A stretch of DNA of 64,000 bases. It comes from Arthrospiribacter ruber. GTDB lineage: Bacteria; Bacteroidota; Bacteroidia; Cytophagales; Cyclobacteriaceae. Both the position numbers and the translations under genes were made by a program. Positions 4,359-54,554 of the stretch are shown piece by piece. The stretch covers positions 124,001-188,000 of the forward strand of contig NZ_RPHB01000003.1 in the NCBI RefSeq assembly GCF_019343195.1, written 5' to 3'. Each line of letters begins with the position of its first letter. The first letter of the stretch is position 1. The notes below the pieces were generated by a model. That model did no database searches, had not been told where the DNA came from, and was given only the letters and a program-made list of their open reading frames with translations.

Positions 4359-4535
4359 AGGAAGGGATTTTATGTGAGTATAAAGATTTTCCTTTTGGCA
4401 GAAAACACAAATAGTGCAGAACGGCAATAATGGCACATAATTTTTCAGTGAAAGCAAAAAATGTATACCAAATCATGATGACATTTTTCCAATTCCGCAA
4501 TGCTGAGGTGTAAAAAGACCAAAACCCTTACCGAT

Positions 4536-5747
4536 ATGAAACCATCCTTTTTGAAACTTACACTTTTGCTGCTCAGCTTTTGTATTTGTTTTACTTCCTG
4601 TGCCAGCCCAAATGAAAAAGCGTCAAACAGCCATGATCCTAAACCATCAATGACTGAAAATGAAGGGGTCCAAAAGGCTGATTCAGAAGCCAAGGAACTC
4701 CCAAAATCATCCAGCATGAAAAAAGTGGAGGTAAAAGACCAGGCCCTGAACATGACCATGATGACCCTTAAGGTACCAGCAGGCTGGGTGCTCCATCAGG
4801 ATGTGGCTTCCAACCCAAATGGGTCAGGGTACCTGAAATTCCTTTTGGCTATGGAAAGTCCCGAAGGCGAAATCCACGGATTTCTCCCCTTGATGATGAA
4901 CTACAACGCTTATGTCATGTATGGGCAGCAAAGCGGAGTGTACTTTGATGATTTGGTGAATTATTTGATGCACTACTGCTCAAGACCATTTTTGGAAAAA
5001 TTCATCATCGGTAGCAGGCAATCGGATAGGGAAGCTTTGGCTTCTGACGAGGGTAGACAATACAGGGAATTCGCCCAAAATTATACCAATATGGTCGGAC
5101 AGGCAGGAGCTTATGCTACAATGGACTTTGATATTATAAAAATGGATTTTACTGCTTCAAGAAAGAATGTTCCTTATAAAGGTGTTCTGAAAGCAGCCAA
5201 AATCGGGGTAATAGACCAAAACCCATACCTCACAAGCAAATATGGGATTGTCCTAGGTGGATTTACTCTTGCTCCGGAAAATCTTTTTGCCCAGGCAGAG
5301 AAAAGAGAGATGGACATGGACTTGCAGGTAAACCCTCAGTGGGATGCCAAAAGGTCTCAGATCATCGATATGGAAACCCAGCGCATGTCTCAAGATCATC
5401 AGGCAAGAATGGCCCAACAAAGGCAGCAATTCAATGCCCATCAGCAAAACATGGCATCCATGAGACAGACTTTTGACCAGCAAAACCAAGCCTGGTATGA
5501 AAGAAATTTTGGAAGTGGAGGTTCCAGCTCTTATTCCGGAAATGCTTCCGTAACAGATGCAATAACGGGATATAGCAGCTTTAGCGATCCATACACAGGA
5601 CAACAGATCAAAAAAGAAGGCCACTACAATTACTGGTACACTAATGAGTTTGGGGAATACCACGGCACAGATGATCCCAATTTTCAGCCCGGCAATCATT
5701 ACAGTGGCAATTGGACTCCGGTTCAGCCTCTGAAACCCGATCATTAA
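4536..5747 (+). CDS. hypothetical lipoprotein with Gln-rich helical segment
   Basis: A 403-aa protein not recognised as a named family. ATG at 4536 begins a lipoprotein signal peptide with Cys22 (CFTSCASPNEK); the in-frame codons before it add no signal and were dropped. After a short Ser/Lys/Glu-rich linker comes a folded region (~65-255) with phrases such as VPAGWVLHQDV that suggest a periplasmic beta-rich domain. Then a Gln-, Met- and Arg-rich helix (~280-325, probably coiled coil) and a Gly/Ser/Tyr-rich tail with YNYWYTNEFGEYHGTDDPN, which looks like a surface or scaffold tail. It is divergent from the fucosidase (177 bp between starts), so both promoters lie in that gap. Role unknown. 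Confidence 0.75.
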   Translation: MKPSFLKLTLLLLSFCICFTSCASPNEKASNSHDPKPSMTENEGVQKADSEAKELPKSSSMKKVEVKDQALNMTMMTLKVPAGWVLHQDVASNPNGSGYLKFLLAMESPEGEIHGFLPLMMNYNAYVMYGQQSGVYFDDLVNYLMHYCSRPFLEKFIIGSRQSDREALASDEGRQYREFAQNYTNMVGQAGAYATMDFDIIKMDFTASRKNVPYKGVLKAAKIGVIDQNPYLTSKYGIVLGGFTLAPENLFAQAEKREMDMDLQVNPQWDAKRSQIIDMETQRMSQDHQARMAQQRQQFNAHQQNMASMRQTFDQQNQAWYERNFGSGGSSSYSGNASVTDAITGYSSFSDPYTGQQIKKEGHYNYWYTNEFGEYHGTDDPNFQPGNHYSGNWTPVQPLKPDH

Positions 5748-5780: not shown

Positions 5781-5858
5781 ATGAAAACTATCAGGTATCC
5801 ATTCATCCTATTTTTTTTGATCGGGCTGATGACATCGAACAATTTTTCCAATGTATAA
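5781..5858 (+). CDS. possible 25-aa leader-like peptide or gene remnant
   Basis: A very short ATG-initiated frame beginning MKTIRYPFILFFLIG. It is a basic N-terminus plus a hydrophobic core, like a signal peptide, followed directly by a stop. It sits 33 bp after the preceding lipoprotein gene and 33 bp before the next one. It may be a genuine small membrane peptide, or the surviving leader of a deleted lipoprotein gene; only the leader-like composition supports it. Confidence 0.25.
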   Translation: MKTIRYPFILFFLIGLMTSNNFSNV

Positions 5859-5891: not shown

Positions 5892-6350
5892 ATGAAAAAA
5901 TCACATTACTTCTCCTTATTCAGTTTAGCCTTGGCCTTGTTGCTCTATAGCTGCCAGGAAACAGAAGAGCCTGACAGGATTGATGACCTTCAATTTTTAG
6001 TCGACTACAAATTGGTCCAGCCTGCTGAACTAAGATCAGATGGCTGGTATGTGTCCAATCCGTATTATGAAGCTGCTTTTCAGCATAGGGAAAATGTACA
6101 GCAATACGAGTTTCGAAATGTACGAGAGGACGGAAGTAAATCCGATGTATTTGTCAGAAGACCCAATCAACTCACCATACAAGACAACACCGTTCAGCAT
6201 AGAATCATCATAGGCTCCCCCTATTTGGGCCTTGGAATTTCCGAGGCTGCCAAAAACCAGATGCTCGCAGAATTTCAGCAGATCATTGATCAAAGAGCAG
6301 GGCAATACCATAAGCTGGAGGTGACTGTAATTCCGACTCCGGCTCCATAA
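5892..6350 (+). CDS. hypothetical lipoprotein
   Basis: A 152-aa protein with a lipoprotein signal peptide and predicted lipidated Cys21. The residues after the cysteine are acidic (CQETEEPD), resembling the Bacteroidota lipoprotein export signal that sends lipoproteins to the cell surface. The mature part has no recognised domain; it contains a central beta-rich stretch and an Ala/Gln helix (ISEAAKNQMLAEFQQI) near 115-135. The serine hydrolase gene begins 27 bp downstream on the same strand, so the two probably share a transcript. A surface partner role for the hydrolase is inference from position only. Confidence 0.7.
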   Translation: MKKSHYFSLFSLALALLLYSCQETEEPDRIDDLQFLVDYKLVQPAELRSDGWYVSNPYYEAAFQHRENVQQYEFRNVREDGSKSDVFVRRPNQLTIQDNTVQHRIIIGSPYLGLGISEAAKNQMLAEFQQIIDQRAGQYHKLEVTVIPTPAP

Positions 6351-6377
6351 TTTTTTTTGAACCTAAAACTAACAGTT

Positions 6378-7550
6378 ATGAAAAATATCAAATACCTAAT
6401 TTATCTATTTCTAGGGTTAGTAATCTTCTCCTGCTCGGAAAAGGAAGACGAAAATCCCATCAACCGTCCAGAGCAAGAGGATATTCTCGCCATAGACAAT
6501 AGGGTTCAGGACATCATGAATGAATTCTTGTTCCCGGGACTTTCAATTGCCATTGCTGAAAACGGCAGATTGGTTTACACCAAAGCTTATGGGCTGTCAG
6601 ATGTCAACACAGGTTCCAGGGTAAACATCAATAGCGAGTTTCGTTATTCCAGCTTCGCAAAGACCATTACAGGCATTGCCATCATGCAGTTGGTGGAAGA
6701 AGGCAAGCTTGCTTTGGATGACCCTGTTTTTGGGGAAGGGGCAATTCTCGGGACAGAATATGGAAGCAAAGCATACTCCAACCGAATCAGAAATATCACA
6801 GTCAATCACCTGCTACATCATCTTTCCGGTGGATGGAGAAACTTTGTAGATGACCCAGTTTTTGACTCGCCTTTTAACCTTTCCCAAAATGAAATGATTT
6901 CTTGGGGATTGGATAATGTCGCTCAAGCTACCAACCCAGGAACCACCTACCATTATTCCAATTTTGGATATGTCTTATTGGGCAGAGTAATCGAAAAGGC
7001 ATCAGGGATGTCCTATGAGGCCTATGTCAAATCGGAAATATTAGACCCTGTAGGAGCAAAAAATACGTACCTGGCAAATACATCTGCCAATGATAAAGGG
7101 CCTAATGAAGTATCCTATCTTGCTGATGACAGTTTGGATCCTTACACAACATATAATATCGGTAGAGCTGATGCCACAGCCGGTTGGGTAAGTACACCTA
7201 GTGATGTGGTAAGAATTCTCAGCGCTGTAGACCAGCAACCTAACCGTCCTACCTTGCTCAGCACTCAGTCCAATCAATTAAGGCGGACGCCTTTGAACAA
7301 TTCAGGTAACTACGGTAAAGGTGTTTATCGGTTGGCACACCCTGATCTTGGCAATGTCTATTGGCATGACGGATCTTGGCCAGGAACTCAGACATTGTCA
7401 GTTTCCATACCTGGGAATATTTCAATCAGTGTTGCAATGAATTCAAGTAATTATGCAGAATACCAACGTTCATTGAATTTCATTGCCGGAAAGCTGTTTG
7501 AAATTGTGCAGGATGAATCCATCACTTTCCAGGATATAGACCAATTTTGA
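6378..7550 (+). CDS. serine hydrolase, class C beta-lactamase/PBP-like, lipoprotein
   Basis: A 390-aa protein starting at ATG 6378, where MKNIKYLIYLF opens a lipoprotein signal with Cys19; CSEKEDEN after it is a strongly acidic surface-export-like signal. The catalytic motifs of the beta-lactamase/DD-peptidase fold are in order: SxxK as SFAK with Ser92 and Lys95, YSN at 193-195, and HDG at 330-332 in place of KTG. HxG at the third motif is typical of the esterase/D-aminopeptidase-like branch more than of true antibiotic-hydrolysing AmpC. Likely substrates are peptides, esters or cell-wall fragments at the surface; drug resistance should not be assumed. It lies downstream of the 152-aa lipoprotein gene. 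Confidence 0.85.
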   Translation: MKNIKYLIYLFLGLVIFSCSEKEDENPINRPEQEDILAIDNRVQDIMNEFLFPGLSIAIAENGRLVYTKAYGLSDVNTGSRVNINSEFRYSSFAKTITGIAIMQLVEEGKLALDDPVFGEGAILGTEYGSKAYSNRIRNITVNHLLHHLSGGWRNFVDDPVFDSPFNLSQNEMISWGLDNVAQATNPGTTYHYSNFGYVLLGRVIEKASGMSYEAYVKSEILDPVGAKNTYLANTSANDKGPNEVSYLADDSLDPYTTYNIGRADATAGWVSTPSDVVRILSAVDQQPNRPTLLSTQSNQLRRTPLNNSGNYGKGVYRLAHPDLGNVYWHDGSWPGTQTLSVSIPGNISISVAMNSSNYAEYQRSLNFIAGKLFEIVQDESITFQDIDQF

Positions 7551-7730
7551 CAAAATGATTTCAGAAAAGCTGTAAGACAAGGGGATTTTTTTAGTAAGTG
7601 AACACACTTCGGTAGACGGAGAAGATCAAGTTGAATCACTGGGTAATCAGGGGTATAATTTGCTTTTCTCCATTTTTTTTGATGACAAAAAGCAGCTTAT
7701 CCGATGTTTTAAAAAAGACATTTTATTAAC

Positions 7731-7856
7731 ATGAGAAAATTAGCATGAATTATTGCCCTTACAATCTTCGCCCTCGCAGGGCATGTATAGGTAGAGAACC
7801 TAAATCTGGAGAAAGTGGATGTAATCTCCGAAACCTTGCCATTTCAATTGGTCTAA
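7731..7856 (+). pseudogene. degraded small exported-protein gene
   Basis: From ATG 7731 one frame reads MRKLA, stop, IIALTIFALAGHV, stop, VENLNLEKVDVISETL and ends at TAA 7856. Removing the two in-frame stops (TGA 7746-7748 and TAG 7788-7790) leaves a convincing signal peptide followed by a polar stretch. Two single-base nonsense changes in an otherwise signal-like frame suggest a decayed gene. Chance cannot be excluded in so short a frame. Confidence 0.35.
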
Positions 7857-7951
7857 CTTATTTATTTAAAATGTAAAAGTTTGGTGGTAAAAAACACCAT
7901 TAAATTGGTCTGAAATTCAATAGATTGTATATTTCTGTATTATTTATCGAA

Positions 7952-8515
7952 ATGCAGCAATATACTTTTGAAAAATATAGTCAGGAAGAAATAATAGAAG
8001 GAATCAAAAATAATGATTCCAGGATGATTCAGGTATTCTATCAAAGCCAGTACAAAAAGATCGAACAATACATATTGGCAAACAATGGAGATCCTGAAGA
8101 CGCCAAAGATATCTACCAAGAAGCATTTGTGGTCCTTTGGAGAAACATCAAGCTGGAGAAATTTCATCCTGAAAACGGAACCGCGATAGCGGGATACCTT
8201 TATCAGATTGCCAAAAACAAGTGGCTGGATAAGTTGAGAAATGCCAAAAACAAAATTACCGTGGAACTGCAACCAAACCTTCACGAGGCTGAGGAAGAAA
8301 ATGAACCTGAAACAGAAGCCTACCATCAGTGGGTCGTCAAAGAGTTTGAAAATCTTGGCGAAACCTGCAAGGAAGTTCTGAAAAGGTTTTACTTCCAGAA
8401 AGAAAGCATGGAGCAAATAGCCTCAGCCTTTGACTGGACTTCTGCAACTGCACGCAACAACAAGTACCGCTGCATTCAACAGCTGAAAGAAAAGTGGAAA
8501 ACTAAAACCAAATAA
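7952..8515 (+). CDS. ECF-type RNA polymerase sigma factor
   Basis: A 187-aa sigma-70 family protein from ATG 7952 (a TTG further upstream is in frame but adds residues that fit no sigma region). Region 2 covers about residues 22-85, with the -10 recognition helix around DPEDAKDIYQEAFVVLWRN. Region 4 is the C-terminal helix-turn-helix (about 130-180) with KEVLKRFYFQKESMEQIA and a basic end. A non-conserved Glu-rich linker joins them. It is the first gene of a three-gene operon: the next start is 5 nt after its stop. Known for the type: ECF factors are held inactive by a membrane partner and released on an envelope signal. The likely targets are the three downstream lipoprotein genes, which share an upstream motif; that regulatory link is inference. 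Confidence 0.92.
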   Translation: MQQYTFEKYSQEEIIEGIKNNDSRMIQVFYQSQYKKIEQYILANNGDPEDAKDIYQEAFVVLWRNIKLEKFHPENGTAIAGYLYQIAKNKWLDKLRNAKNKITVELQPNLHEAEEENEPETEAYHQWVVKEFENLGETCKEVLKRFYFQKESMEQIASAFDWTSATARNNKYRCIQQLKEKWKTKTK

Positions 8516-8519
8516 GACT

Positions 8520-9260
8520 TTGAATAACCCAAATCATATATCACAAGAAGAGTTTGAAAGGATAGAGCAGTATATTCTAGGAAGTATGTCTGCTTCTGAA
8601 GCTGATTTATTCCGGGAGGAACTGGAGCAAAGTGAGGACTTGAGAAAAAAGCACGCAGAAGTCAAGGCTTTGATTTCGGCCGTGGAAGAAGGGGCTTTAC
8701 GAAATAGCTTGGATAAATTCCATCAGGACATGGAAAGCGAATCATCTGGACCAGCTCCTGTCAAAAAACTCACACCTTGGTTTTGGTCTGCTGCAGCGGC
8801 CATAGCATTGGTAATAGCAGCGGCTGTATGGACACTTTATCCTCAGCCAACTAGCCATGAAAGGTTGTTTGCCCAATACTTTCAGGAAGACCCAGGTTTG
8901 ATCACTGCCATGAGCTCAGAGGGACAATATGACTTTGATAGGGCAATGGTGGATTATAAGTCCGGGAATTACAGGGATGCAATACGTAGATGGGAAACAA
9001 TTCTATTGGAGAAACCTGAAAATGACACCCTGCTTTATTTTATAGGCTCCTCACACCTTGCCCTGAAAGAGACGGAGGCTGCCATCTCCTATTTCGAAAA
9101 AGTGCTCTTACTGCCGGAAGGCAGGTTTACTGAAGACAATTATTGGTATCTGGGTTTGGCACACCTGAGAGAGGGAAGAATGGAGGAAGCGAAAGTCAAT
9201 CTGGCAAATTCCACACATCCCCTCAAAGATCAACTGCTCAAAACTTTAGAGGAAAAATGA
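8520..9260 (+). CDS. membrane-anchored TPR protein, probable anti-sigma factor
   Basis: A 246-aa protein beginning with TTG at 8520, 5 nt after the sigma gene. The N-terminal ~80 residues are helical and charged (HISQEEFERIEQYILGSM), resembling the cytoplasmic part of Bacteroidota anti-sigma factors, but the HxxxCxxC zinc motif of the ZAS class is absent. One membrane segment follows (about 87-107, Ala-rich), and then periplasmic tetratricopeptide repeats with RDAIRRWETILLEKP and ALKETEAAISYFEKVLLL. Its stop overlaps the start of the CHAT gene (ATGA), so translation is probably coupled. Inference: the inside helix binds the sigma factor while the TPR part senses or docks the CHAT protein or a surface lipoprotein. 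Confidence 0.75.
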   Translation: MNNPNHISQEEFERIEQYILGSMSASEADLFREELEQSEDLRKKHAEVKALISAVEEGALRNSLDKFHQDMESESSGPAPVKKLTPWFWSAAAAIALVIAAAVWTLYPQPTSHERLFAQYFQEDPGLITAMSSEGQYDFDRAMVDYKSGNYRDAIRRWETILLEKPENDTLLYFIGSSHLALKETEAAISYFEKVLLLPEGRFTEDNYWYLGLAHLREGRMEEAKVNLANSTHPLKDQLLKTLEEK

Positions 9261-12200
9261 AAGCCTTGCTGCTGATCGTGTTGGCCTTGCTTTTGGCAGG
9301 CATGCAATCTGACAATCCCGTGGATGCACAATTGGCGGCAATTCAGGCATATTTATCAGATGGACAAACTCAGCAAGCTGAGAAGCTTTTTGAAAAATAT
9401 ACCCAAGAATATCTTGAGCAATCCGACTACCTAAATCTTGCTTATTTTATTCCCTATGCCGGATACATTGCACAACAAAAAGAATCCACCACTGCGGGGA
9501 TAGAAGCTGCAGAAAACTGGTTGAACCTTATTAGGGAAAAAACCAATGAAGCCAGATCCTTAAGACAGGCATATCTGGAAATACACACCTATTACCTGGA
9601 AGCAGGGAAAACGCAGATGGCTTACGATGCCAATCTTAAAGCACTGGAATTTACCTATCAGATGCCGGATTATAGGGGAGAAGAATGGGGCATAATCGAA
9701 AAAAACCTTGGCGTCATAGCTTCCTTGTTGGGTTCACCAGAGCTCGCCAAATCACATTCTTTGAAAGCCCATAAGGGTTTTGAGGAAGATCCTCTGACCT
9801 CTGCTGTCAGTAAATTCAACTCACTCAATGACCTCGGAGTAAGGTATTGGTATGAAGCCAAATGGGATTCAGCGGAATATTTTTGGCTGGAGGGGATCAA
9901 AATGCTAGATCAGATGGAGGCCAATCCTACCAACCAATACTACCGAAAAGCCATGATCGATGGCAACCTGGCTGCAGTTTATGATGTCAAAGGCAATCCT
10001 CAGGAAAGTATCAAAAGGGTCAAATCTTCTATTGACCTGATCCAACATTTTTTGGAAAATGCCAAAGATGATCCAAAATGGAACCGTGCACATATTTCCC
10101 TCTTTTACAGCACTGCCAATCTCGCAGCTGTTTATAAAAGTGTAGGTAATTATCAAAAGGCACTTCAGCTGCATGAGTACACCCTTAGAGAAAAAGAAAA
10201 GCGCTTTGATCCCTTGCACCCTGAGGTAATAGAGACTAAAATCCACCTGGGCCAGGCACATAATTCTCTCAAAAATTTCTCTCAGGCAGAGGGGTTGCTA
10301 TTGGAGGCTTTGGAGGGAATCAGCCAAAATGAAGGTGAGTTTTTCATTCAGGCAGGAGATGCCCACTATACCCTTGGGATGCTTTATGAATCCACTCAGC
10401 ACATTGAAAAAGCCAAGTCACATTACCACAAAGCCAATGAATACTTTCTGAAAGGACTCAAAGACAAAGCTGACTATGTATATCTGGGTTTTTTGGGGAA
10501 TGCCTCCCGTTTTTTTTCATTGCAGGAAGAGTCCAAGACAGCATTGGAAATGGCTCAAAAAGGAGTTGATTATGTCCTCAAAACCGACGGGAAAAATACG
10601 GTCACCGGTTTCAACCAGATATTAAATTTGGGAGAAGTACATTTCAATTTAAAAGCATACCAAAGGGCCAAAGTTTTAGCCGATGAAAGTCTGGAAATCT
10701 TGGAAAGCCTGATCCGAAATACCAAGGGAAGCTTAGATTCAGTAAGGGTAGAATTTGACAAACCTCAGGCAGTTTTGCTTCAGGTAAAATCCGAATATTA
10801 CCTCAACCAGGACCCCTCGCAGTATTTTTTGGAATCCAGCTTGGAAAAACTGATGGATGCACAACAGGTTTTGGAAAGGAGAAAAAATACACTCAACAAC
10901 TCTGAAGACATCTCTGTACTTCAAAGCCAAAGTCAGGAACTCCTCTCTTTTATCAAAAAGATACAGTTGGAACTTTACCAAAAATCAAAAGATGAGGCCT
11001 ACTTGAAGTCTTTGTTGGCAGTACAGGAATCAGAAGTCTATGCAAAAATCCGTGCTCAGGTCAATCAGGCCGGTCTGGTATCTTTCAAGGATATTCCACA
11101 AAAAGTGCTGGACAGAGAGGCGCAAATAAAAGCAAATTTGAGAGATGAACTTGAAGAGGCGAGTTCTTTGTCAGATTTCATAAAGCTCTCAAATGAATGG
11201 GATGATTTTCTCCAGATGCTCAGAACTGAATACCCAGACTATTATCAAACCCGCTATGCCAACATCAGCCGGCAGGAAATCCGTCTTCCAATATCCCTTC
11301 AGGCTGTAAGGTACATTTTTGTAGAAGACCACCTGTATGCCATTGTCATCAGACAGGGCAAGATGAAGCTTTATCCTCTGGATTTTCAGGCAGACTTGAT
11401 CTCTAAGTTATCTGAAAACTGGCATGAGACAAAAGTAATCTGTGCCTTTAGCCATGAGTTGTACAAGCAGCTTTGGGAGCCATTTGCGAATGATTTGACA
11501 GAAGAAAGGGTGCTGATCATTCCGGATGGCATTTTGTATAACCTGAGCTTTGACATGTTGCTGACCGAAAGTACAGACAGTTTTCGGGATTTTTCCAAAA
11601 AAAGTCTCTTGGCCAGGCATGACATTTACTATCATTTTAGCCTCAGCATGACCCAAAAGAAGCCTACTTCAAAAATTTCCTCCAATTACGTTGTTTTTGC
11701 TCCCGGATTCATCGACAATATGAAAGAAAAATATATGGCTTTTGTCCAAGACAGTACTTTGGTAGACAAAGCCTATCTCTCATTATTGCCACAACCCTTT
11801 ACTTTGAGCTTGGCGGAGAATGCGAGCAGGTCTTTTGAAGGAGAACGGTATGTCCTTGAGGAATCCACTCCAGCTGCATTTCGGCAAAAGGCCGGCAACC
11901 ACAAGATCATCCATATTGGCACCCATGCCGAGTCCGATAATATAAGCCCGGCATTTTCCCGCTTGATTTTTGCCAAATCCAATGGAGGGGGTTTGACAGA
12001 TGAAGACAACTCACTTTATGCTTACGAAATTTACAATACAGACCTGCGGGCTGAATTGGCAATATTGACTGCATGCGAAACCGGTAAACCCATCTATCAA
12101 CCAGGTGAAGGAATGATTTCCCTAAGCCATGCTTTTACTTATTCAGGCAGTGAGAGCCTATTGACCAGCCTTTGGAAAATTGATGAAAAGGCCAGCAACC

Positions 12201-12460
12201 AGATCACAGAATTTTTCCTCCAATATATCAAAGATGGCCAGCCAAAAGACAGGGCACTCCGTCTGGCCAAATTACAATACCTTGAAACGGCACAGGGCAG
12301 AACACTCTCTCCTCAGTATTGGGCAGGGCTGATACTGATCGGTGATCCTGGACCTATTTCTGACCTTGGGGCTAAAGATTATAGGTTGTATTGGATAATT
12401 GCATTATTTCTGCTTTTTGCCCTTATCATTTTTTTCAAAAGGAAGAGAGCAGAAGCTTAA
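9257..12460 (+). CDS. TPR-CHAT caspase-like protein
   Basis: A 1067-aa protein from ATG 9257, which overlaps the previous stop and opens a signal peptide (MKALLLIVLALLLAG). About residues 20-560 are tetratricopeptide repeats, for example NYQKALQLHEYTLREKEKR. A helical linker leads to a C-terminal CHAT domain (~730-1030) of the caspase/separase clan. The catalytic pair is visible: HIGTHAESD with His886 and His890, and ILTACETGKP with Cys940, followed by the usual end SPQYWAGLILIGDP. A final transmembrane helix (IIALFLLFALIIFF) with a basic tail anchors it, so the protease part is predicted outside the cytoplasm. CHAT enzymes are peptidases activated through partner domains. Sigma, TPR and CHAT genes in one operon suggest proteolysis-linked signalling; a substrate is not shown. 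Confidence 0.9.
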   Translation: MKALLLIVLALLLAGMQSDNPVDAQLAAIQAYLSDGQTQQAEKLFEKYTQEYLEQSDYLNLAYFIPYAGYIAQQKESTTAGIEAAENWLNLIREKTNEARSLRQAYLEIHTYYLEAGKTQMAYDANLKALEFTYQMPDYRGEEWGIIEKNLGVIASLLGSPELAKSHSLKAHKGFEEDPLTSAVSKFNSLNDLGVRYWYEAKWDSAEYFWLEGIKMLDQMEANPTNQYYRKAMIDGNLAAVYDVKGNPQESIKRVKSSIDLIQHFLENAKDDPKWNRAHISLFYSTANLAAVYKSVGNYQKALQLHEYTLREKEKRFDPLHPEVIETKIHLGQAHNSLKNFSQAEGLLLEALEGISQNEGEFFIQAGDAHYTLGMLYESTQHIEKAKSHYHKANEYFLKGLKDKADYVYLGFLGNASRFFSLQEESKTALEMAQKGVDYVLKTDGKNTVTGFNQILNLGEVHFNLKAYQRAKVLADESLEILESLIRNTKGSLDSVRVEFDKPQAVLLQVKSEYYLNQDPSQYFLESSLEKLMDAQQVLERRKNTLNNSEDISVLQSQSQELLSFIKKIQLELYQKSKDEAYLKSLLAVQESEVYAKIRAQVNQAGLVSFKDIPQKVLDREAQIKANLRDELEEASSLSDFIKLSNEWDDFLQMLRTEYPDYYQTRYANISRQEIRLPISLQAVRYIFVEDHLYAIVIRQGKMKLYPLDFQADLISKLSENWHETKVICAFSHELYKQLWEPFANDLTEERVLIIPDGILYNLSFDMLLTESTDSFRDFSKKSLLARHDIYYHFSLSMTQKKPTSKISSNYVVFAPGFIDNMKEKYMAFVQDSTLVDKAYLSLLPQPFTLSLAENASRSFEGERYVLEESTPAAFRQKAGNHKIIHIGTHAESDNISPAFSRLIFAKSNGGGLTDEDNSLYAYEIYNTDLRAELAILTACETGKPIYQPGEGMISLSHAFTYSGSESLLTSLWKIDEKASNQITEFFLQYIKDGQPKDRALRLAKLQYLETAQGRTLSPQYWAGLILIGDPGPISDLGAKDYRLYWIIALFLLFALIIFFKRKRAEA

Positions 12461-12499: not shown

Positions 12500-12519
12500 A
12501 TATACCAACCTTAATCATC

Positions 12520-15096
12520 ATGAAACCGAAGATTTACCTCCTCCTGTTTTTTGCCTTTTTTCTGGCAGTAAACTCCTGTAAAGACGTGGAAGAACCTGAT
12601 CTGCCACCTATCATTGACAACCCGGATCCAGATCCTGACCCAGACCCTGATCCACAACCCACCGATTATCCCACCATGGATATCAATGTGGTATTTCCCG
12701 AGAATGTCAGTCCCGACCTGGAAGGTGCCAAGGTGATCGGGGCATTCAAGGAGCATCCGCTACAGGGCAACAGTTCCAAAGTATTCGTGCCACAGGGAAA
12801 AAGCCAGCTGGCCTTTCTTCAGGACAAGGATGATAATATACTTTTACTCGGCTTTATCAATGACAAAAACAAAACCCTCAGCATTCAGTCTTCGGCTGAA
12901 GCTTTGGCTTTCTTGGGCCTTGGCGGATTTATCCTGCCTTCATCTGTGCAGCAGAAATACCCCGATGAAGCTGCAAGCCTGCCGGGAATGGATGAGTTCA
13001 AAAAGAAACTGGCCGAACTATATGTAAGCGACAATAAGCTCTTTGAAACCGAAAAGTACATCCCTGCTCTGGAAGACTTTGCAAGGCCGATTTATGAAAA
13101 AGGGGAGGAAATAGACATCCGGGCCAGACAGATCAATGTTGGTCCCACCGGGTACAAAAGCGGTATACAGGTATTTGACAATGACTTTCAGTCCATACTC
13201 ATCAGGAACCAATACCTGCGTGTGGCCTATGCTTATTTGTACAAACTTTCCTTTAAGGACAAAGAAGGCACAAAAACAGAATTGATCAAATCCAACAGTT
13301 TCAATCCCTCCCAGAGTCCTGCCATATTCAGTGAAAAGGCCATAGATGCAGCGAATAAATCCGGAGGTATCATGGGAGTGCTGACAGATCATCTGGCGGG
13401 AAATGGGATGGAAGTCTTTATGAAGGAGACCGGTCCTGTTTCCATACCATTAGGAGCCAATGAATCCGAAGCTGAGTATGCAGTAAGGGTAGTAGGTCCT
13501 ACCTTCAACAACTTTGACCAAAGCAGGATGACCACGACTGAACTGGAAAAGTACAAGGAGCTCGCCCTGGAGACCTTTTTCAAAGAAGCTTTGCTGCCCG
13601 CAGTCACATTCATCATCAATAAAAACCTGAAGGTAGAAGGAGATGATGCCTGGCCTATGGATCTTATGAATTCAATAACGACCACATTTTTAAAAGAATA
13701 CCCTGAAATCCTGGCCAAAGTAGAAGAGGGAAAGTATAGGGATGCCCTGAAGCAGACATTGGAAGAGCTGTTTTTCAATCCGACAAAAGATGCGGTTGCC
13801 GGCCAGCTCAGTGGAAAATTGATGGATATGATTTATTCGAAATATGCCAAAGAACCGGAGTTTGGGAATTTCTATGATGATAGGGAGCTGCAGACCAAGA
13901 GGAACATTGCCAGGTTTCAGAAAGCCTTTGAACTGATAGAGGCAGCGCTGACAGCGTGGGATGCGGGAAGAATGATAGCCCATCTTACCAATGCCTTGCC
14001 CATAGAGCAGTTTTTGGTAACGGCCCGGGAACATGATATCAAACTCTTGCCAGAGGAGACCTCGGTCACGGTCTTCACCAACAAGGACTTTACTGTAGAG
14101 ACCAGGACAGAGCTGAGTGATGGACAGGCATTCCTTTACAAATGGTCCACCTCAGGTACTTACGGCACGATCCGGGACAATATTGGCAATGATGGGAAGT
14201 CATTTGAAAATGGTCAGAAGACGGTTACCTACCGGGCCACGGCATCCAATATTCCGGATGATGCCAAAGAAACGATTACAGTGGTTGCCTATGTCAAACA
14301 GGGTCAGAATGAATCGAAAATCGGTGAAGCCACCGCTACGGTTTCGGTCAAGCCGGCAAGGCTGGAAATCAAACCTGATGGAATCACTTTGGTTGGAAAA
14401 GAAAAACAGAGCCTTGCCCTATATGTGGAATGGGCCAATGGGGATGCATTTGAAAGCACCAATAGTTTTGAGTACAAGTACGAGTGGTCCACACCGGGCC
14501 TATATGGTAAATTTGATGGTAGGATGACTCATGCCACCACTTCTAGGCCAAGGATTATCTATCAGGCCTTGGACGAGGATGTGGAAAAAGGAGAGGAAAA
14601 TTTAAAAGTGGATATTTACATGAAGGATAAAGACGGGGGCGATTGGTTCAAATACCACACTGCCGAAGGTAAAGTAAAAGTTGAAAATGACGATAATTAT
14701 TTGATTTATCATGAAGCATTTACTGTGGCAACTTTTAACCACGTTGTAAGAGACAGGATAGGAGGTTTGTCTAATTTTATAAAAGTTGATATACCCAAAA
14801 AAGAAGAATATGAAGAATATACCGTACGATTGTATGGCTTTAGAACTAGATTTACTGCTAGAAATGAGGGAGTGGTTTTGAAATGGAAAAGAGATGGAAG
14901 TGTTCCAACATTATATGACCTTGCTGGAGCTTTAACCCACCGTGTTTATGACATTGAATACCCGGATGATGTCTTTGCAATCGGTATTAGAATAAATTCA
15001 AGAAGTTGCTTTATCGATGATGGTTGTCCTAATGATATTATTGATGCAGCATTAAGCGCTGGAGGAATGGCAGAAATAAAAATCAAGTTGAAATAG
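12520..15096 (+). CDS. large variable surface lipoprotein, paralog 1
   Basis: An 858-aa lipoprotein starting at ATG 12520; upstream in-frame codons overlap the CHAT gene and were rejected. Signal peptide with Cys20 (LAVNSCKDVEEPD), where KD plus EE after Cys fits a surface-export signal. A DP-rich linker (PDPDPDPDPDPQPTD) follows, then a long helical body (~100-520) of unknown fold. Two Ig/PKD-like repeats are marked by YKWSTSGTYG and YEWSTPGLYG, and a ~130-aa C-terminal domain ends in EIKIKLK. Body residues ~20-690 are almost identical to paralog 2, yet its leader is identical to paralog 3 and its C-terminal domain differs from both. The C-terminal coding DNA is visibly more AT-rich than the body. 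No named family recognised; adhesin-like surface role is inference. Confidence 0.85.
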   Translation: MKPKIYLLLFFAFFLAVNSCKDVEEPDLPPIIDNPDPDPDPDPDPQPTDYPTMDINVVFPENVSPDLEGAKVIGAFKEHPLQGNSSKVFVPQGKSQLAFLQDKDDNILLLGFINDKNKTLSIQSSAEALAFLGLGGFILPSSVQQKYPDEAASLPGMDEFKKKLAELYVSDNKLFETEKYIPALEDFARPIYEKGEEIDIRARQINVGPTGYKSGIQVFDNDFQSILIRNQYLRVAYAYLYKLSFKDKEGTKTELIKSNSFNPSQSPAIFSEKAIDAANKSGGIMGVLTDHLAGNGMEVFMKETGPVSIPLGANESEAEYAVRVVGPTFNNFDQSRMTTTELEKYKELALETFFKEALLPAVTFIINKNLKVEGDDAWPMDLMNSITTTFLKEYPEILAKVEEGKYRDALKQTLEELFFNPTKDAVAGQLSGKLMDMIYSKYAKEPEFGNFYDDRELQTKRNIARFQKAFELIEAALTAWDAGRMIAHLTNALPIEQFLVTAREHDIKLLPEETSVTVFTNKDFTVETRTELSDGQAFLYKWSTSGTYGTIRDNIGNDGKSFENGQKTVTYRATASNIPDDAKETITVVAYVKQGQNESKIGEATATVSVKPARLEIKPDGITLVGKEKQSLALYVEWANGDAFESTNSFEYKYEWSTPGLYGKFDGRMTHATTSRPRIIYQALDEDVEKGEENLKVDIYMKDKDGGDWFKYHTAEGKVKVENDDNYLIYHEAFTVATFNHVVRDRIGGLSNFIKVDIPKKEEYEEYTVRLYGFRTRFTARNEGVVLKWKRDGSVPTLYDLAGALTHRVYDIEYPDDVFAIGIRINSRSCFIDDGCPNDIIDAALSAGGMAEIKIKLK

Positions 15097-15123
15097 TTGG
15101 AATACCCTCGTTGAACAGATAAT

Positions 15124-15152
15124 ATCCCGGAGAAATTTCTTCGGGATTTTTT
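15124..15152 (+). terminator. rho-independent terminator after paralog 1
   Basis: ATCCCG (15124-15129) and CGGGAT (15142-15147), with further pairing inside, followed by a T run. It separates paralog 1 from the control element of paralog 2, so each paralog is its own transcription unit. Confidence 0.8.
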
Positions 15153-15160
15153 AAATAATT

Positions 15161-15191
15161 GATGACAATTGCCTTCGCTTTCGATGTAAGG
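15161..15191 (+). promoter_or_regulatory. bipartite element upstream of lipoprotein gene 2
   Basis: GATGA (15161-15165), 16 nt, CGATGTAAGG (15182-15191), then TCATATACC; the start codon is 25 nt later. The spacer shares little with the copies at 12469 and 17853, which argues that the two boxes are under selection and not just carried along by duplication. Confidence 0.5.
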
Positions 15192-15216
15192 TCATATACC
15201 CTTAACCTTTACTGTT

Positions 15217-17781
15217 ATGAAAGTCAGATTTAACCTTTTGCTTCTGTTTTCGGTTCTGTTGTTTTTCAATTCCTGCAAAGACGTGGAAGAACCTGATCTG
15301 CCACCTATCATTGACAACCCGGATCCAGATCCTGACCCAGACCCGGATCCACAACCCACCGATTATCCCACCATGGATATCAATGTGGTTTTTCCCGAGA
15401 ATGTCAGTCCCGACCTAGAAGGTGCCAAGGTGATCGGGGCATTCAAGGAGCATCCGCTACAGGGCAACAGTTCCAAAGTATTCGTGCCACAGGGAAAAAG
15501 CCAGCTGGCCTTTCTTCAGGACAAGGATGATAATATACTTTTACTCGGCTTTATCAATGACAAAAACAAAACCCTCAGCATTCAGTCTTCGGCTGAAGCT
15601 TTGGCTTTCTTGGGCCTTGGCGGATTTATCCTGCCTTCATCTGTGCAGGAAAAATACCCCGATGAAGCAGCAAGCCTGCCAGGAATGGATGAGTTCAAAA
15701 AAAAACTGGCCGAACTATATGTAAGCGACAATAAGCTCTTTGAAACCGAAAAGTACATCCCTGCTCTGGAAGACTTTTCAAGGCCTATTTATGAAAAAGG
15801 AGAGGAGATAGACATCCGGGCAAGGCAGATCAACGTCGGTCCCACCGGGTACAAGAGCGGTATACAGGTTTTTGACAATGACTTTCAGTCCATACTCATC
15901 AGGAACCAATACCTGCGTGTGGCTTATGCTTATTTGTACAAACTTTCCTTTAAGGACAAAGAAGGCACAAAAACAGAATTGATCAAATCCAACAGTTTCA
16001 ATCCTTCCCAGAGTCCTGCCATATTCAGTGAAAAGGCCATAGATGCAGCGAATAAATCCGGAGGTATCATGGGAGTGCTGACAGATCATCTGGCGGGAAA
16101 TGGGATGGAAGTGTTTATGAAGGAGACCGGTCCTGTGTCCATACCATTGGGAGCCAATGAATCCGAAGCTGAGTATGCAGTAAGGGTAGTAGGTCCTACC
16201 TTCAACAACTTTGACCAAAGCAGGATGACCACGACTGAACTGGAAAAGTACAAGGAGCTCGCCCTGGAGACCTTTTTCAAAGAAGCTTTGCTGCCCGCAG
16301 TCACATTCATCATCAATAAAAACCTGAAGGTAGAAGGAGATGATGCCTGGCCTATGGATCTTATGAATTCAATAACGACCACATTTATAAAAGAATACCC
16401 TGAAATCCTGGCCAAAGTAGAAGAGGGAAAGTATAGGGATGCCCTGAAGCAGACATTGGAAGAGCTGTTTTTCAATCCGACAAAAGATGCGGTTGCCGGC
16501 CAGCTCAGTGGAAAATTGATGGATATGATTTATTCGAAATATGCCAAAGAACCGGAGTTTGGGAATTTCTATGATGATAGGGAGCTGCAGACCAAGAGGA
16601 ACATTGCCAGGTTTCAGAAAGCCTTTGAACTGATAGAGGCGGCGCTGACAGCGTGGGATGCGGGAAGAATGATAGCCCATCTTACCAATGCCTTGCCCAT
16701 AGAGCAGTTTTTGGTAACGGCCCGGGAACATGACATCAAACTCTTGCCAGAGGAGACCTCGGTCACGGTCTTCACCAACAAGGACTTTACTGTAGAGACC
16801 AAAACAGAGCTGAGCGACGGACAGGCATTCCTTTACAAATGGTCCACTTCAGGTACTTACGGCACGATCCGGGACAATATTGGCAATGATGGGAAGTCAT
16901 TTGAAAATGGTCAGAAGACGGTTACCTACCGGGCCACGGCATCCAATATTCCGGATGATGCCAAAGAAACGATTACAGTGGTTGCCTATGTCAAACAGGG
17001 TCAGAATGAATCGAAAATCGGTGAAGCCACCGCTACGGTTTCGGTCAAGCCGGCAAGGCTGGAAATCAAACCTGATGGAGTGACCCTTCAGGGCAAAGAG
17101 AAACAGAGCCTTGCCCTATATGTGGAGTGGGCCAATGGAGATGCTTTTGAGAACGCCAGTACTTTTGATTACAAGTATGAATGGTCTACCCCTGGTAAAT
17201 ATGGAAAATTTGATGGAAGTATGATCAATGCTACGACCAGAAATCCCAGGATCATCTACCAGGCCTTGGATGAGGATGTGGAGGAAGCGGAGGAAGATTT
17301 GAAAGTAGACATCTATATGAGGAGAAAAGATGGAGGCGACTGGTTCAAATACCATACAGCTGAAGGCAAAGTCAAAATCGAGAATGATGAAAAACTGAAA
17401 ATTCTTCACCTTCCGCTTACTGTATTTACCTCTTACCATACAAATAGTCAGCATGGAGGAGGAACAAATTTCCTGCATGCCTCTTTTCCAAGAAGTGATG
17501 ACTATGAAAGGATTAGCGTGCGATTTTATGGGTATAAGAGAACTACAATACCATCTTCAGAAGGTAGGGCCTTTTCTTGGGATACAGAAGTTGGAGCCCC
17601 AATAAGAATTAATTTGAACAACCAAGTCTCAGCTGATCGATATATCGACAAAGTGCCTGATAACCTGATTGCAATTTATTACTTGACTAATAGTGCAGCA
17701 AGTGGAACAAGGGTTCCTGAATTAGCAGCAGGCCTTCAGACTTTTGGTGGTCAGGTAGAGGTGAAAATCAGATTGAAATAG
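15217..17781 (+). CDS. large variable surface lipoprotein, paralog 2
   Basis: An 854-aa lipoprotein of the same family. The signal peptide is different (MKVRFNLLLLFSVLLFFNSC, Cys20), but from KDVEEPD onward residues ~20-690 match paralog 1 nearly without change, including the DP linker and first Ig-like unit. The second Ig-like unit (YEWSTPGKYG) and the sequence around DGGDWFKYHTAEGKVKIEN match paralog 3 better. The last ~130 residues are unique but keep a shared frame: a YE.. VR.YG core, an EG..W segment, and an ending VEVKIRLK. This patchwork indicates gene conversion or domain exchange among the three genes. Exported to the surface by its acidic post-Cys residues; function unknown. Confidence 0.85.
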   Translation: MKVRFNLLLLFSVLLFFNSCKDVEEPDLPPIIDNPDPDPDPDPDPQPTDYPTMDINVVFPENVSPDLEGAKVIGAFKEHPLQGNSSKVFVPQGKSQLAFLQDKDDNILLLGFINDKNKTLSIQSSAEALAFLGLGGFILPSSVQEKYPDEAASLPGMDEFKKKLAELYVSDNKLFETEKYIPALEDFSRPIYEKGEEIDIRARQINVGPTGYKSGIQVFDNDFQSILIRNQYLRVAYAYLYKLSFKDKEGTKTELIKSNSFNPSQSPAIFSEKAIDAANKSGGIMGVLTDHLAGNGMEVFMKETGPVSIPLGANESEAEYAVRVVGPTFNNFDQSRMTTTELEKYKELALETFFKEALLPAVTFIINKNLKVEGDDAWPMDLMNSITTTFIKEYPEILAKVEEGKYRDALKQTLEELFFNPTKDAVAGQLSGKLMDMIYSKYAKEPEFGNFYDDRELQTKRNIARFQKAFELIEAALTAWDAGRMIAHLTNALPIEQFLVTAREHDIKLLPEETSVTVFTNKDFTVETKTELSDGQAFLYKWSTSGTYGTIRDNIGNDGKSFENGQKTVTYRATASNIPDDAKETITVVAYVKQGQNESKIGEATATVSVKPARLEIKPDGVTLQGKEKQSLALYVEWANGDAFENASTFDYKYEWSTPGKYGKFDGSMINATTRNPRIIYQALDEDVEEAEEDLKVDIYMRRKDGGDWFKYHTAEGKVKIENDEKLKILHLPLTVFTSYHTNSQHGGGTNFLHASFPRSDDYERISVRFYGYKRTTIPSSEGRAFSWDTEVGAPIRINLNNQVSADRYIDKVPDNLIAIYYLTNSAASGTRVPELAAGLQTFGGQVEVKIRLK

Positions 17782-17810
17782 ACGCTGACTTCATTAATAA
17801 GGTTGTGTTT

Positions 17811-17842
17811 CCCGGAGCTTGATGAGTTCCGGGTTTTTTTTT
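17811..17842 (+). terminator. rho-independent terminator after paralog 2
   Basis: CCCGGA (17811-17816) pairs with TCCGGG (17828-17833) and is followed by nine T. It ends the paralog 2 unit ahead of the third control element. Confidence 0.85.
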
Positions 17843-17852
17843 CAATAATTCA

Positions 17853-17884
17853 GATGACAAAGCCATGATGGTTACGATGTAAGG
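17853..17884 (+). promoter_or_regulatory. bipartite element upstream of lipoprotein gene 3
   Basis: GATGA (17853-17857), 17 nt, CGATGTAAGG (17875-17884), then ATATACC, with the start 20 nt after the second box. From the second box to the start codon the sequence is identical to paralog 1, while the spacer differs. Confidence 0.5.
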
Positions 17885-17904
17885 ATATACCAACCTTAAT
17901 CATC

Positions 17905-20481
17905 ATGAAACCGAAGATTTACCTCCTCCTGTTTTTTGCCTTTTTTCTGGCAGTAAACTCCTGCAAAGACGTGGAAGAACCTGATCTGCCACCAATCATT
18001 GATAATCCGGATCCCGATCCTGACCCAGACCCTGATCCACAACCCACCGATTATCCCACCATGGATATCAATGTGGTTTTTCCCGAGAATGTCAGTCCCG
18101 ACCTGGAAGGTGCCAAGGTGATCGGAGCATTCAAGGAGCATCCGCTACAGGGCAGCAGTTCCAAAGTATTCGTGCCACAGGGAAAAAGCCAGCTGGCCTT
18201 TCTTCAGGACAAGGATGACAATATACTTTTACTCGGCTTTATCAATGACAAAAACAAAACCCTCAGCATTCAGTCTTCGGCAGAAGCTTTAGCTTTCATA
18301 GGGCTCGGCGGATTTACCCTGCCTTCTTCTGTGCAGGAAAAATACCCCGATGAAGCTGCAAGTCTTTCGGGAATGGATGAGTTCAAAAAGAAACTGGCCG
18401 AACTATATGTAAGCGACAATAAGCTTTTTCAAACTGAAAAATTCATGTCTGCTTTGGGTGAATTTGTTAAACCCTACTATGAAAAAGGGGAGGAAATAGA
18501 CATCCGGGCCAGACAGGTCAACGTGGATCCCACCGGGTATAAAAGTGGGATCCAGGTTTTCGAGAATGACTTCCAGTCGGTATTGATCAGAAACCAATAT
18601 CTCCGCGCTGCCCATGCATTTATGTACAAGCTTTCCTTCAAGGATAAAGAAGGGAAAAAGACAGAGCTGTTCAAGTCTGAGAATTTCAACCAGTCCAGCA
18701 GTCCTGAAATAATCAGCGAAACCCCCATAGATGCAGCCAACAAGTCCGGAGGAATTATCGGCGTAATTGCCGATCACCTCGCAGGAAACGGGCTTGAGGT
18801 ATTTATGAAAGAGACAGGCCCTATTTCCATCCCCTTAGGGGCAAATGAATCAGAAGCTGAATATGCGGTTCGATTGGTTGGCCCCACATTTGGGAACAGC
18901 GCACAGAACAGGATGACTACCAAAGAACTGGAAAAGTATACCGAGATGGCTATACAGACATTTCTAGTGGAAGCACTGATCCCGGCTATAGGATATTTTA
19001 TTAACAATAATATCAAAATAGATGGAGACGAGGGATGGCCTTTGGAAATGATGAATTCCGCAACCACTTCGTTTATAAACGGATACCCTGAGATCGCCAA
19101 AAAGGTGGAAGAAGGACAGTATAGGGAAGCCCTGAAGGAATCATTGGAGAAGCTTTTTATTGATCCTTTGCAGGATGCAGTAGCTGACAAGGCCAAAAAT
19201 CAATTACTGGACATGATTTTTTCTAGATATGCCAAAGATCCTGAGTTCGGTAATTTATATGACACCAAAGACCTGCAGACCAAAAGTCGGACTGCTAAAT
19301 TCTTAAAGGCTTTTGATCTGATTGAGAAAGCATTGGGATTTTGGGATGCTGGCAGATTGATGGCACACCTGACCAATGCAAGGCCCGTAGAGCAGTTTCT
19401 GGTGACAGCAAGGGAGCATGATATCAAACTTCTTCCAAAAACCCAGTCAATCACTGCACTTTCCAATCAAGAATTTACTGTGGAGACTAAAACGGAACTC
19501 AGCGATGGACAGGCATTTCTATACAAGTGGTCGACTTCAGGCACCTACGGTAATATAAGAGATAATCTGGGCAATACCGGCAAAGAAATCGAAAATGGGC
19601 AGAAGACTATAACTTATCGGTCCGACAAGGCAGCTGTACCAAATGATGCCAAGGAAACCATATCAGTGCAGGTATTTGTGAAGCAAGGACCTAATGAAAC
19701 CAAAATTGGAGAGGCATCCTCTACCTTGACAATCAAACCGGCAAGATTAGTACTTAAACCTGATGGAATCACCTTATCCGGAAAAGAAAAGCAATCGCTA
19801 GCATTATATGTGGAATGGTTAAGTGGAACCCCTTTTGAACAGGAAGAGTTTTTTGAATATAGATATGAATGGTCAACACCCGGTCAATACGGTATGTTTG
19901 AGGGCAAAACTACCGCAATCACCACCCAAAGACCAAGACTTACTTATCAGGCACTTGATGAGGATGTGGAAAAAGCAGAGGAAAGTTTAAAAGTGGACAT
20001 CTACATGAGAAGAAAAGATGGAGGTGATTGGTTCAAATACCATACAGCCGAAGGCAAGGTCAACATCGAAAATGATGAAAAACTGAAAATACTTCACCTT
20101 CCTATTCAGATATCCACTTACCGCCATGCTTTAGCAAATACTAATGGTTATACCAGTATCATGAATGTTTCTTTCCCAAAAAGTGATGAATATGAAGAAT
20201 ACTCAGTAAGGCTTTATGGTTTTAGGCGGCAATTGAGCCCATCTTTAGAAGGTGTCTCCGGTTCTTGGCAAGAGGGAAAAGACATGCCAAGTAGATTCAA
20301 CATGGCAGCATTTTTAGGACAAAATCTATTCGGTGTCAGTTATCCATCTGACCGGGTAGGCATCATGGTCTATACTGGAAGCAAAAGCTGTCCATTAAGT
20401 CATGGTTGTCCTTCTGATGATACTATTGCCTTTTTGAGTTCACTTGGAGGCATGGTGGAAGTCAAAATCAAGTTGAAATAA
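17905..20481 (+). CDS. large variable surface lipoprotein, paralog 3
   Basis: An 858-aa member of the same family with the paralog 1 leader (Cys20, NSCKDVEEPD) and DP linker. The first ~170 residues are nearly identical to the other two; the helical body then diverges at many positions while keeping length and landmarks (GNGLEVFMKETGPISIPLGA, EFGNLYD, HDIKLLP). Two Ig-like units (YKWSTSGTYG, YEWSTPGQYG) and a variable ~130-aa C-terminal domain with EEYSVRLYGFRRQ and a terminal VEVKIKLK follow. A pair of cysteines in SCPLSHGCPSD has a counterpart in paralog 1 (SCFIDDGCPND) but not in paralog 2. It is the oldest-looking divergent copy, so the array probably grew by at least two duplication events. 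Confidence 0.85.
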   Translation: MKPKIYLLLFFAFFLAVNSCKDVEEPDLPPIIDNPDPDPDPDPDPQPTDYPTMDINVVFPENVSPDLEGAKVIGAFKEHPLQGSSSKVFVPQGKSQLAFLQDKDDNILLLGFINDKNKTLSIQSSAEALAFIGLGGFTLPSSVQEKYPDEAASLSGMDEFKKKLAELYVSDNKLFQTEKFMSALGEFVKPYYEKGEEIDIRARQVNVDPTGYKSGIQVFENDFQSVLIRNQYLRAAHAFMYKLSFKDKEGKKTELFKSENFNQSSSPEIISETPIDAANKSGGIIGVIADHLAGNGLEVFMKETGPISIPLGANESEAEYAVRLVGPTFGNSAQNRMTTKELEKYTEMAIQTFLVEALIPAIGYFINNNIKIDGDEGWPLEMMNSATTSFINGYPEIAKKVEEGQYREALKESLEKLFIDPLQDAVADKAKNQLLDMIFSRYAKDPEFGNLYDTKDLQTKSRTAKFLKAFDLIEKALGFWDAGRLMAHLTNARPVEQFLVTAREHDIKLLPKTQSITALSNQEFTVETKTELSDGQAFLYKWSTSGTYGNIRDNLGNTGKEIENGQKTITYRSDKAAVPNDAKETISVQVFVKQGPNETKIGEASSTLTIKPARLVLKPDGITLSGKEKQSLALYVEWLSGTPFEQEEFFEYRYEWSTPGQYGMFEGKTTAITTQRPRLTYQALDEDVEKAEESLKVDIYMRRKDGGDWFKYHTAEGKVNIENDEKLKILHLPIQISTYRHALANTNGYTSIMNVSFPKSDEYEEYSVRLYGFRRQLSPSLEGVSGSWQEGKDMPSRFNMAAFLGQNLFGVSYPSDRVGIMVYTGSKSCPLSHGCPSDDTIAFLSSLGGMVEVKIKLK

Positions 20482-54357: not shown

Positions 54358-54433
54358 TTTATGAATACTGGATATAGGTTTATATTCAAATGATTCATTA
54401 GTTGAATTAATAAGAAAATTGGAGTTTTTAGGT

Positions 54434-54493
54434 AAAATTACCCTGTACAGGGTAATTTTGGGAGTGAGGAAATGGGTAGGTTTGGTAATTGGG
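54434..54493. repeat. palindromic 60-bp repeat, left copy
   Basis: Begins with a 26-bp perfect palindrome (54434-54459) centred on CCCTGTACAGGG with AAAATTA/TAATTTT arms, followed by TGGGAGTGAGGAAATGGGTA and GGTTTGGTAATTGG. The same block recurs at 57417-57477 in the same orientation with few changes. The pair brackets the DGQHR/HEPN genes, the small gene and the IS21-like end. Confidence 0.85.
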
Positions 54494-54496
54494 AAA

Positions 54497-54554
54497 TATC
54501 AACAATCTTGTTGATAGCATTCCATTTAGGGATGCTTTTCGCTATTGCGAAAAG
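54497..54554. promoter_or_regulatory. two further inverted repeats before the DGQHR-like gene
   Basis: TATCAACAA (54497-54505) pairs with TTGTTGATA (54508-54516), and CTTTTCGC (54535-54542) pairs with GCGAAAAG (54547-54554), both perfect. The second lies 33 bp before the start codon at 54587. They are candidate operators for the XRE-type regulator or part of a recombination site; neither is absent of alternative readings, and the first has a 2-nt centre typical of a protein-binding palindrome more than of an RNA hairpin. Confidence 0.45.

Follow-up and report, generated by a model that had tools for sequence, protein, structure and literature searches.

A mosaic lipoprotein family with exchanged C-terminal domains, linked to an ECF sigma factor, a TPR protein and a TPR-CHAT protease in Cyclobacteriaceae

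Results

Tandem lipoprotein genes behind a sigma–TPR–CHAT module

We analysed a window of 64,000 nucleotides from Arthrospiribacter ruber (RefSeq assembly GCF_019343195.1, contig NZ_RPHB01000003.1, positions 124,001 to 188,000 of the forward strand), and all coordinates of this locus are those of the window. Three intact open reading frames of 854-858 aa, here called P1, P2 and P3, lie in tandem on the + strand behind genes for an ECF sigma factor, a one-pass TPR protein and a TPR-CHAT protease. A recurrent upstream motif and terminator-like hairpins accompany them (Table 1).

Table 1 Features of the locus in window coordinates
Feature	Position	Strand	Description
Motif	4476..4502	+	1 mismatch; before lipoprotein-like ORF 4500-5747 (inner ATG 4536)
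Motif before small lipoprotein	5827..5853	+	1 mismatch
Small lipoprotein	5892..6350	+	152 aa; leader and C-terminal domain of shorter family members; HMM E = 6.6e-25
Motif TGATGACA-N14-CGATG	7680..7706	+	Exact; ~270 nt 5' of sigma gene
ECF sigma factor	7952..8515	+	
One-pass TPR protein, anti-sigma-like	8520..9260	+	246 aa; one hydrophobic segment; TPR by Pfam
TPR-CHAT protease	9257..12460	+	1067 aa; predicted periplasmic; His890/Cys940
Motif before P1	12468..12494	+	2 mismatches
Lipoprotein P1	12520..15096	+	Leader P3-like, body P2-like, C-terminal type its own
Terminator-like hairpin after P1	15124..15147	+	
Motif before P2	15160..15186	+	Exact
Lipoprotein P2	15217..17781	+	Own leader, body P1-like, Ig2 end P3-like; C-terminal type also in a Mongoliibacter MAG copy
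Terminator-like hairpin after P2	17811..17833	+	
Motif before P3	17852..17879	+	1 mismatch
Lipoprotein P3	17905..20481	+	Leader P1-like, body diverged, C-terminal type as in Mongoliibacter ruber
Terminator-like hairpin after P3	20505..20532	+	

Judged by their leader and an invariant cysteine, P1, P2 and P3 are lipoproteins: Cys20 follows a hydrophobic leader and is the same in every row of a 45-row alignment. The sequence CKDVEE at the lipobox cysteine resembles the surface-export signal of Bacteroidota lipoproteins. The proteins are probably exposed on the cell surface; behind the word 'surface' in the original prediction stand the lipobox and the predicted Ig-like domains. The layout of the family is best explained as a lipid anchor, an acidic linker, a conserved N-terminal part, a mixed helical/beta body, two Ig-like domains and a C-terminal beta domain. 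Fold searches with whole proteins returned generic Ig-like matches, mostly at residues ~505-723, and the C-terminal domain alone is a predicted beta domain with a mean pLDDT of 92. For this domain neither Foldseek (best E 0.063) nor VIA-align 2 (best Z 5.2, rmsd 3.8 over 94 residues) found a clear structural relative; this alone does not make the fold a new one. A profile search of PDB sequences also reached a best E of 0.063. The C-termini of 37 relatives align as one domain family, for which Pfam offered five weak families only, with no toxin among them. No named family was found for the full-length proteins in Pfam or NCBIfam, in line with the original prediction: Pfam had no family at E <= 1 for P1, P2 or P3, and NCBIfam gave no match near its cut-off, the best for P1-P3 being BamK (E 0.0017; 18.3 of 120 bits).

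Within its own genome, the full-length matches to the family are P1, P2 and P3, and two more matches (E 0.03 and 0.1) cover the leader only. Family matches occur in 35 of 390 family-level genomes and 16 of 390 order-level genomes; fifteen of these 16 are in Cyclobacteriaceae, and the sixteenth match is weak. Named relatives carrying the family are Mongoliibacter and Indibacter, both Cyclobacteriaceae of the Bacteroidota. In one genome (G347, contig C76, 19297-20643), a family copy with two stop codons adjoins an intact copy.

The window also holds other repeats. Direct repeats between 42000 and 45000 comprise two 164-nt copies that are 96% alike, two 130-nt copies that are 94% alike and five 102-nt copies that are 61-100% alike. 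Two further repeats, at 54419-54512 and 57401-57495, lie ~3 kb apart, are 81-85% alike and carry a CCCTGTACAGGG palindrome. An HTH gene lies close to these CCCTGTACAGGG repeats, as does a gene resembling GmrSD_N below cut-off; the repeat at 57401-57495 has numerous short matches spread over several Indibacter contigs.

Leader, body and C-terminus of P1, P2 and P3 have different histories

The three genes form a real patchwork, in which leader, body and C-terminus pair up differently. In 60-nt windows, the leader of P1 is identical to that of P3 at 57 of 57 positions over 12505-12561, versus 32 of 57 to that of P2, and the comparison of upstream regions places the start of the P1/P3 identity ~33 nt 5' of the ATG. 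In the body, P1 and P2 agree at 405 of 433 informative sites between 12579 and 14370, with 53-60 matches per 60-nt window (mostly at least 57), and P3 falls to 34-47 in most windows. Both the P3 leader on P1 and the near-identity of the P1 and P2 bodies had been claimed in the original prediction, and both stand. Residues 50-135 are 98-100% identical across all three proteins. Between P1 and P2, dS is 0.05 for residues 21-120, 0.15 for 121-290 and 0.04 for 291-620, and reaches 1.9 in the C-terminus.

The same prediction assigned to P2 a second Ig-like unit of P3 type. This proves correct for the last ~35-40 residues of the unit and the junction that follows, and not for the unit as a whole, over which P1 and P2 are 80% identical versus 74% for P2 and P3. 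Around MRRKDGGDWFKYH, P2 and P3 agree at 30 of 39 informative sites (14613-14716), and over the ~120 nt of the Ig2 end P2 is nearest to P3 (54/60 and 53/60 in 60-nt windows, versus 35-48/60).

The mosaic is larger than first described, as its largest swap, which is also the main discontinuity, had been overlooked: the C-terminal ~125 residues are only 31, 35 and 39% identical among P1, P2 and P3, each copy carrying another type, though two of the bodies are 99% identical. In 60-nt windows over the last ~125 codons, every pair is diverged. The recombination test suggested at the outset was run as a GENECONV-like permutation. The longest shared runs span 82, 25 and 9 polymorphic sites where 12.1, 3.6 and 3.1 would be expected, and every pair reaches P <= 2e-4; the test treats sites as exchangeable, uneven conservation can inflate its result, and the run of 9 is the least safe. 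A three-state segmentation recovered the same main blocks, together with many short segments in the diverged C-terminus.

C-terminal types have moved between genes and species

Mosaicism, distinct C-terminal domain types and recent exchange between species are seen in the family. In AU tests on 37 full-length relatives, protein trees of the body, of Ig1-2 and of the C-terminal domain reject one another in all six comparisons (p <= 8.7e-5), and no single bifurcating tree fits all three parts. With 'like' set at >=60% identity and 'unlike' at <50%, for bodies and C-termini, pairs among these sequences comprise 20 with like bodies and unlike C-termini, 18 with unlike bodies and like C-termini, and 15 alike in both. 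For example, two copies from two genera (G063b and G026b) are 32% identical in the body and 95% identical in the C-terminus; for G318a and G320 the values are 36% and 87%. Conversely, P3 and an Indibacter copy have bodies that are 90% identical and C-termini that are 28% identical. The Indibacter gene resembles P1 (91-98%) as far as P1 position ~13356 and P3 (91-98%) from ~13477 to ~14640, and the C-terminus that follows is of the same type as those of MON2 and G078. Within one C-terminal type, dN lies well below dS where computable (e.g. 0.05/0.61 and 0.08/3.1).

The block from the sigma gene to the CHAT gene was itself recently exchanged with Indibacter. Positions 7842-12358 are shared at 96.3% identity. 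The sigma gene has a dS of 0.105, the TPR gene 0.073 and the CHAT gene 0.17, compared with ~2 for the adjacent alr. Block 7057-7689 is 91% identical to Indibacter; downstream, collinear pieces of at least 1 kb on the Indibacter contig of the shared module reach 68-79%. Comparison of 50-64 kb of the window with three relatives gave short scattered matches only, so 20.5-40 kb was taken as the background. At ~39-40 kb, a 1.1-kb piece is 94% identical to another Indibacter contig, with shorter pieces of 87-93% nearby; since this piece breaks the uniform background, the sigma-CHAT module is not the sole close stretch.

The gene conversion or domain shuffling originally proposed is therefore supported, as recombination both among tandem copies and between species. 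The description of the family as 'actively exchanging' is borne out as far as the exchange is recent; exchange in the present day is a possibility.

The lipoprotein genes are linked to a predicted regulatory triad

The sigma factor matches Pfam Sigma70 region 2 at 3.8e-12, above cut-off; its match to region 4, at 17.1 of 24.1 bits, stays under the cut-off. Its neighbour, the TPR protein, is conserved across 28 aligned copies and probably serves as an anti-sigma factor. The protease carries a CHAT domain (Pfam E 1.6e-41), and the His/Cys pair is kept in all 29 CHAT proteins. By eye, these proteins have one hydrophobic stretch at the N-terminus and another at the C-terminus, the latter followed by basic residues, on which account the catalytic part is predicted to be periplasmic.

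A CHAT gene is present in 29 of 35 family-bearing stretches, the window included (adding the leader-only matches L051 and L052 would make this 29 of 37), and sigma and TPR genes in 27 of 35, with varying gene orders. L067 has the CHAT gene, with sigma and TPR genes unmatched or outside the stretch. The six stretches where the CHAT gene is absent are L048, L058, L066, L068, L070 and L074, two of which are at contig ends. TPR-protein matches above 200 bits occur in 32 of the 35 lipoprotein-bearing genomes and in 7 of the other 355, a contrast that takes both draws of 390 genomes as one set and is biased upward by a profile built mostly from lipoprotein loci. Given these seven genomes, and the weaker matches seen in 240 of 390, the TPR regulator is not confined to the lipoprotein family.

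A phmmer search with the CHAT protein found no Csx29 chain among 17 matches at E <= 0.1 (kinesin-light-chain-like, TAX-1). A role in defence was considered and set aside, PADLOC having matched no model at E <= 0.01 with five proteins of the locus (P2 not among them). Ahead of the sigma gene, at 7731-7876, lies the degraded remnant of an outer-membrane protein gene with an early stop, the ends of which resemble, by eye, an intact 225-aa Indibacter ORF (L010:747-1424) that also precedes a sigma gene.

A shared motif precedes the lipoprotein genes

The motif TGATGACA-N14-CGATG was derived from sequences upstream of 20 family genes and of some further genes. Allowing up to 2 mismatches, 34 of 45 family genes have it within 150 nt upstream (19 of the 20 defining genes and 15 of the 25 held out), compared with 1.8% of windows drawn at random from these loci, a control that still contains true sites. 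For 31 of these 34, the distance from the start of the motif to the assumed ATG is 48-57 nt; six of the 11 genes without the motif are among the most diverged full-length members. The window has five sites at up to 1 mismatch (4476, 5827, 7680, 15160 and 17852), on the + strand only, and letter shuffles give 0.05 per strand. Three of eight exact-pattern matches in the genome fall in the locus, and a reversed control pattern has 3 matches. Across 20 genomes, 44 of 124 exact-pattern matches fall in ~20-kb module loci (assigned by eye; one of the 44 is inside a coding region) where ~0.5 are expected, and the control pattern has 28 matches. G306, G345, G277 and G194 have no exact match at the module. 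Of 30 loci, 13 have the motif within 400 nt of the sigma gene when one mismatch is allowed. Searched over 7.5-20.7 kb, Sigma-70-type promoters occur at chance (21 found versus 23.2 expected).

Two genomes of one genus (L129 and L130) possess the triad without this lipoprotein family; in these the motif is found ahead of genes for a small lipoprotein and for an outer-membrane protein, which links it to the regulator and not to the lipoprotein. Other genes appear in the predicted regulon as well. A serine hydrolase (PF00144) with a lipoprotein-like leader is found in two genera, at 6357-7550 of the window and at L065:2626-3903, and stands directly behind the motif in G063. In Indibacter (L010:6188-9897), three other envelope genes, one FISUMP and one weakly FadL-like, lie between the CHAT and lipoprotein genes, and the motif occurs at up to 1 mismatch at 6014 and 7903 of the same stretch.

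Discussion

We propose, with confidence slightly better than even, that these lipoproteins serve in recognition through exchangeable tips and are expressed from an ECF regulon of their own, which a CHAT protease controls. Homologous recombination among tandem copies, together with copies acquired from other species, would place old C-terminal types on new bodies. Since discrete, maintained types are swapped on a kept scaffold, we infer that the C-terminal domain is the recognition part, likely specific for a ligand or partner, and swaps would change this specificity with the scaffold kept. From the TGATGACA-N14-CGATG sites, the ECF sigma factor would transcribe the lipoprotein genes, each with its own motif and terminator, and probably also the operon that encodes it. 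The one-pass TPR protein is predicted to restrain the sigma factor until the periplasmic TPR-CHAT protease cuts the TPR protein upon an envelope signal. This cleavage and the resulting sigma release are suggested by topology and by analogy with Csx29, a TPR-CHAT protease described as cutting Csx30, the inhibitor of an ECF sigma factor (PMC10028731). Several results count against the scheme: 11 of 45 family genes lack the motif, under half of the sigma genes have it nearby, no CHAT gene is seen in six of 35 stretches, the TPR regulator ranges more widely than the lipoproteins, and the C-terminal domain found no clear structural relative.

Parts of this arrangement have precedents. In Craspase (Csx29/Csx30/CASP-sigma of type III-E CRISPR), a TPR-CHAT gene similarly stands beside genes for an ECF sigma factor and its inhibitor, and the accessible text describes sigma binding motifs within the locus itself, as here (PMC10028731). 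Unlike in Craspase, a signal peptide and a C-terminal anchor are predicted for the protease of our locus, the inhibitor-like protein crosses the membrane and carries TPRs, and the motif precedes envelope lipoproteins. RseA/DegS, as outlined in the same source, likewise joins a one-pass anti-sigma protein next to an ECF sigma factor with an envelope protease as first cutter (PMC10028731), a part for which the protease here is a candidate; here, however, it is the CHAT protein of the same locus, and cleavage is predicted. Caspase genes beside ECF sigma and TPR genes have already been described in another setting (PMC8195603). In the EACC2-caspase neighbourhoods, as far as the accessible description goes, the variable domain sits on the caspase protein itself, unlike here, and the proteins of our locus matched neither EACC2 nor DUF1822 in Pfam. 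In the open-access literature on CHAT proteases with ECF or anti-sigma factors, covered as titles and abstract openings (subscription papers and preprints mostly fall outside), type III-E CRISPR and the EACC2-caspase neighbourhoods were the relevant settings.

For the lipoproteins, the myxobacterial kin-recognition receptor TraA offers a parallel, with recognition types residing in one variable domain and both horizontal allele transfer and recombination suggested in the text available (PMC6372800). It was compared by description only, and differs from the present proteins, which match no Pfam family, occur in several tandem copies, belong to another phylum and have a presumed recognition role. 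Within the Bacteroidota, surface proteins of Porphyromonas gingivalis are reshaped by domain rearrangement and allelic exchange (PMC5266723); these are different proteins, and the accessible part of that account mentions no sigma/CHAT module (PMC5266723).

A possible but less probable alternative is that the lipoproteins are adhesins or bind glycans, their domains diversifying with the substrate, and that the regulator is an ordinary envelope or nutrient switch, with no self-recognition involved. Tandem Ig-like domains with a C-terminal beta domain would suit such a role, as would the company kept by the motif, which also precedes a FISUMP-domain lipoprotein, the PF00144 serine hydrolase (G063) and a weakly FadL-like outer-membrane protein (G152, below cut-off). 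However, no carbohydrate-binding family reached the Pfam cut-off, and fold matches to such modules are weak.

We think it improbable that the C-terminus is instead the receptor or target of phages or predators, with attackers selecting for exchange and the specificity unused by the cell. Discrete types recombined between genera would fit frequency-dependent selection of this kind, but the low dN/dS within types and the dedicated regulator suggest a function that is used. Sequence alone cannot separate this explanation from the recognition reading.

The variable C-terminus could in principle be a toxin delivered to neighbours, as in the SitA lipoprotein toxins, which according to the accessible text share with our family a lipoprotein leader, a related front, a variable C-terminus and several copies (PMC5562445). 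We set this aside as very unlikely, since immunity genes are absent directly downstream and the 37 C-termini form one common domain family, modelled as a beta domain and matching no Pfam toxin: the gaps of 120, 123 and 96 nt are too small for an immunity gene and hold the terminator-like hairpins. Finally, mis-joined reads of near-identical copies could be imagined, as the genome is a draft in 20 contigs and its tandem stretches are nearly identical, but an artefact of this kind is scarcely credible: independent assemblies show the same swaps and modularity, and in the three genes the frames are intact, the C-termini dissimilar and the motifs and terminators separate.

The recognition reading can be taken further, to a version that we consider unlikely as a whole: a CRISPR-free, Craspase-like logic of the envelope, in which the periplasmic, caspase-like CHAT protease would cut the TPR anti-sigma factor, the freed ECF sigma factor would express an array of lipoproteins with recognition tips traded among genes and genera, and the regulon would both sense and display identity or ligand specificity. 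For environmental bacteria, the locus offers a compact system for following how specificity domains pass from one tandem gene to another and from genus to genus, along with the regulator that likely controls them. If the CHAT step is true, CHAT control of an ECF sigma factor would extend beyond CRISPR systems.
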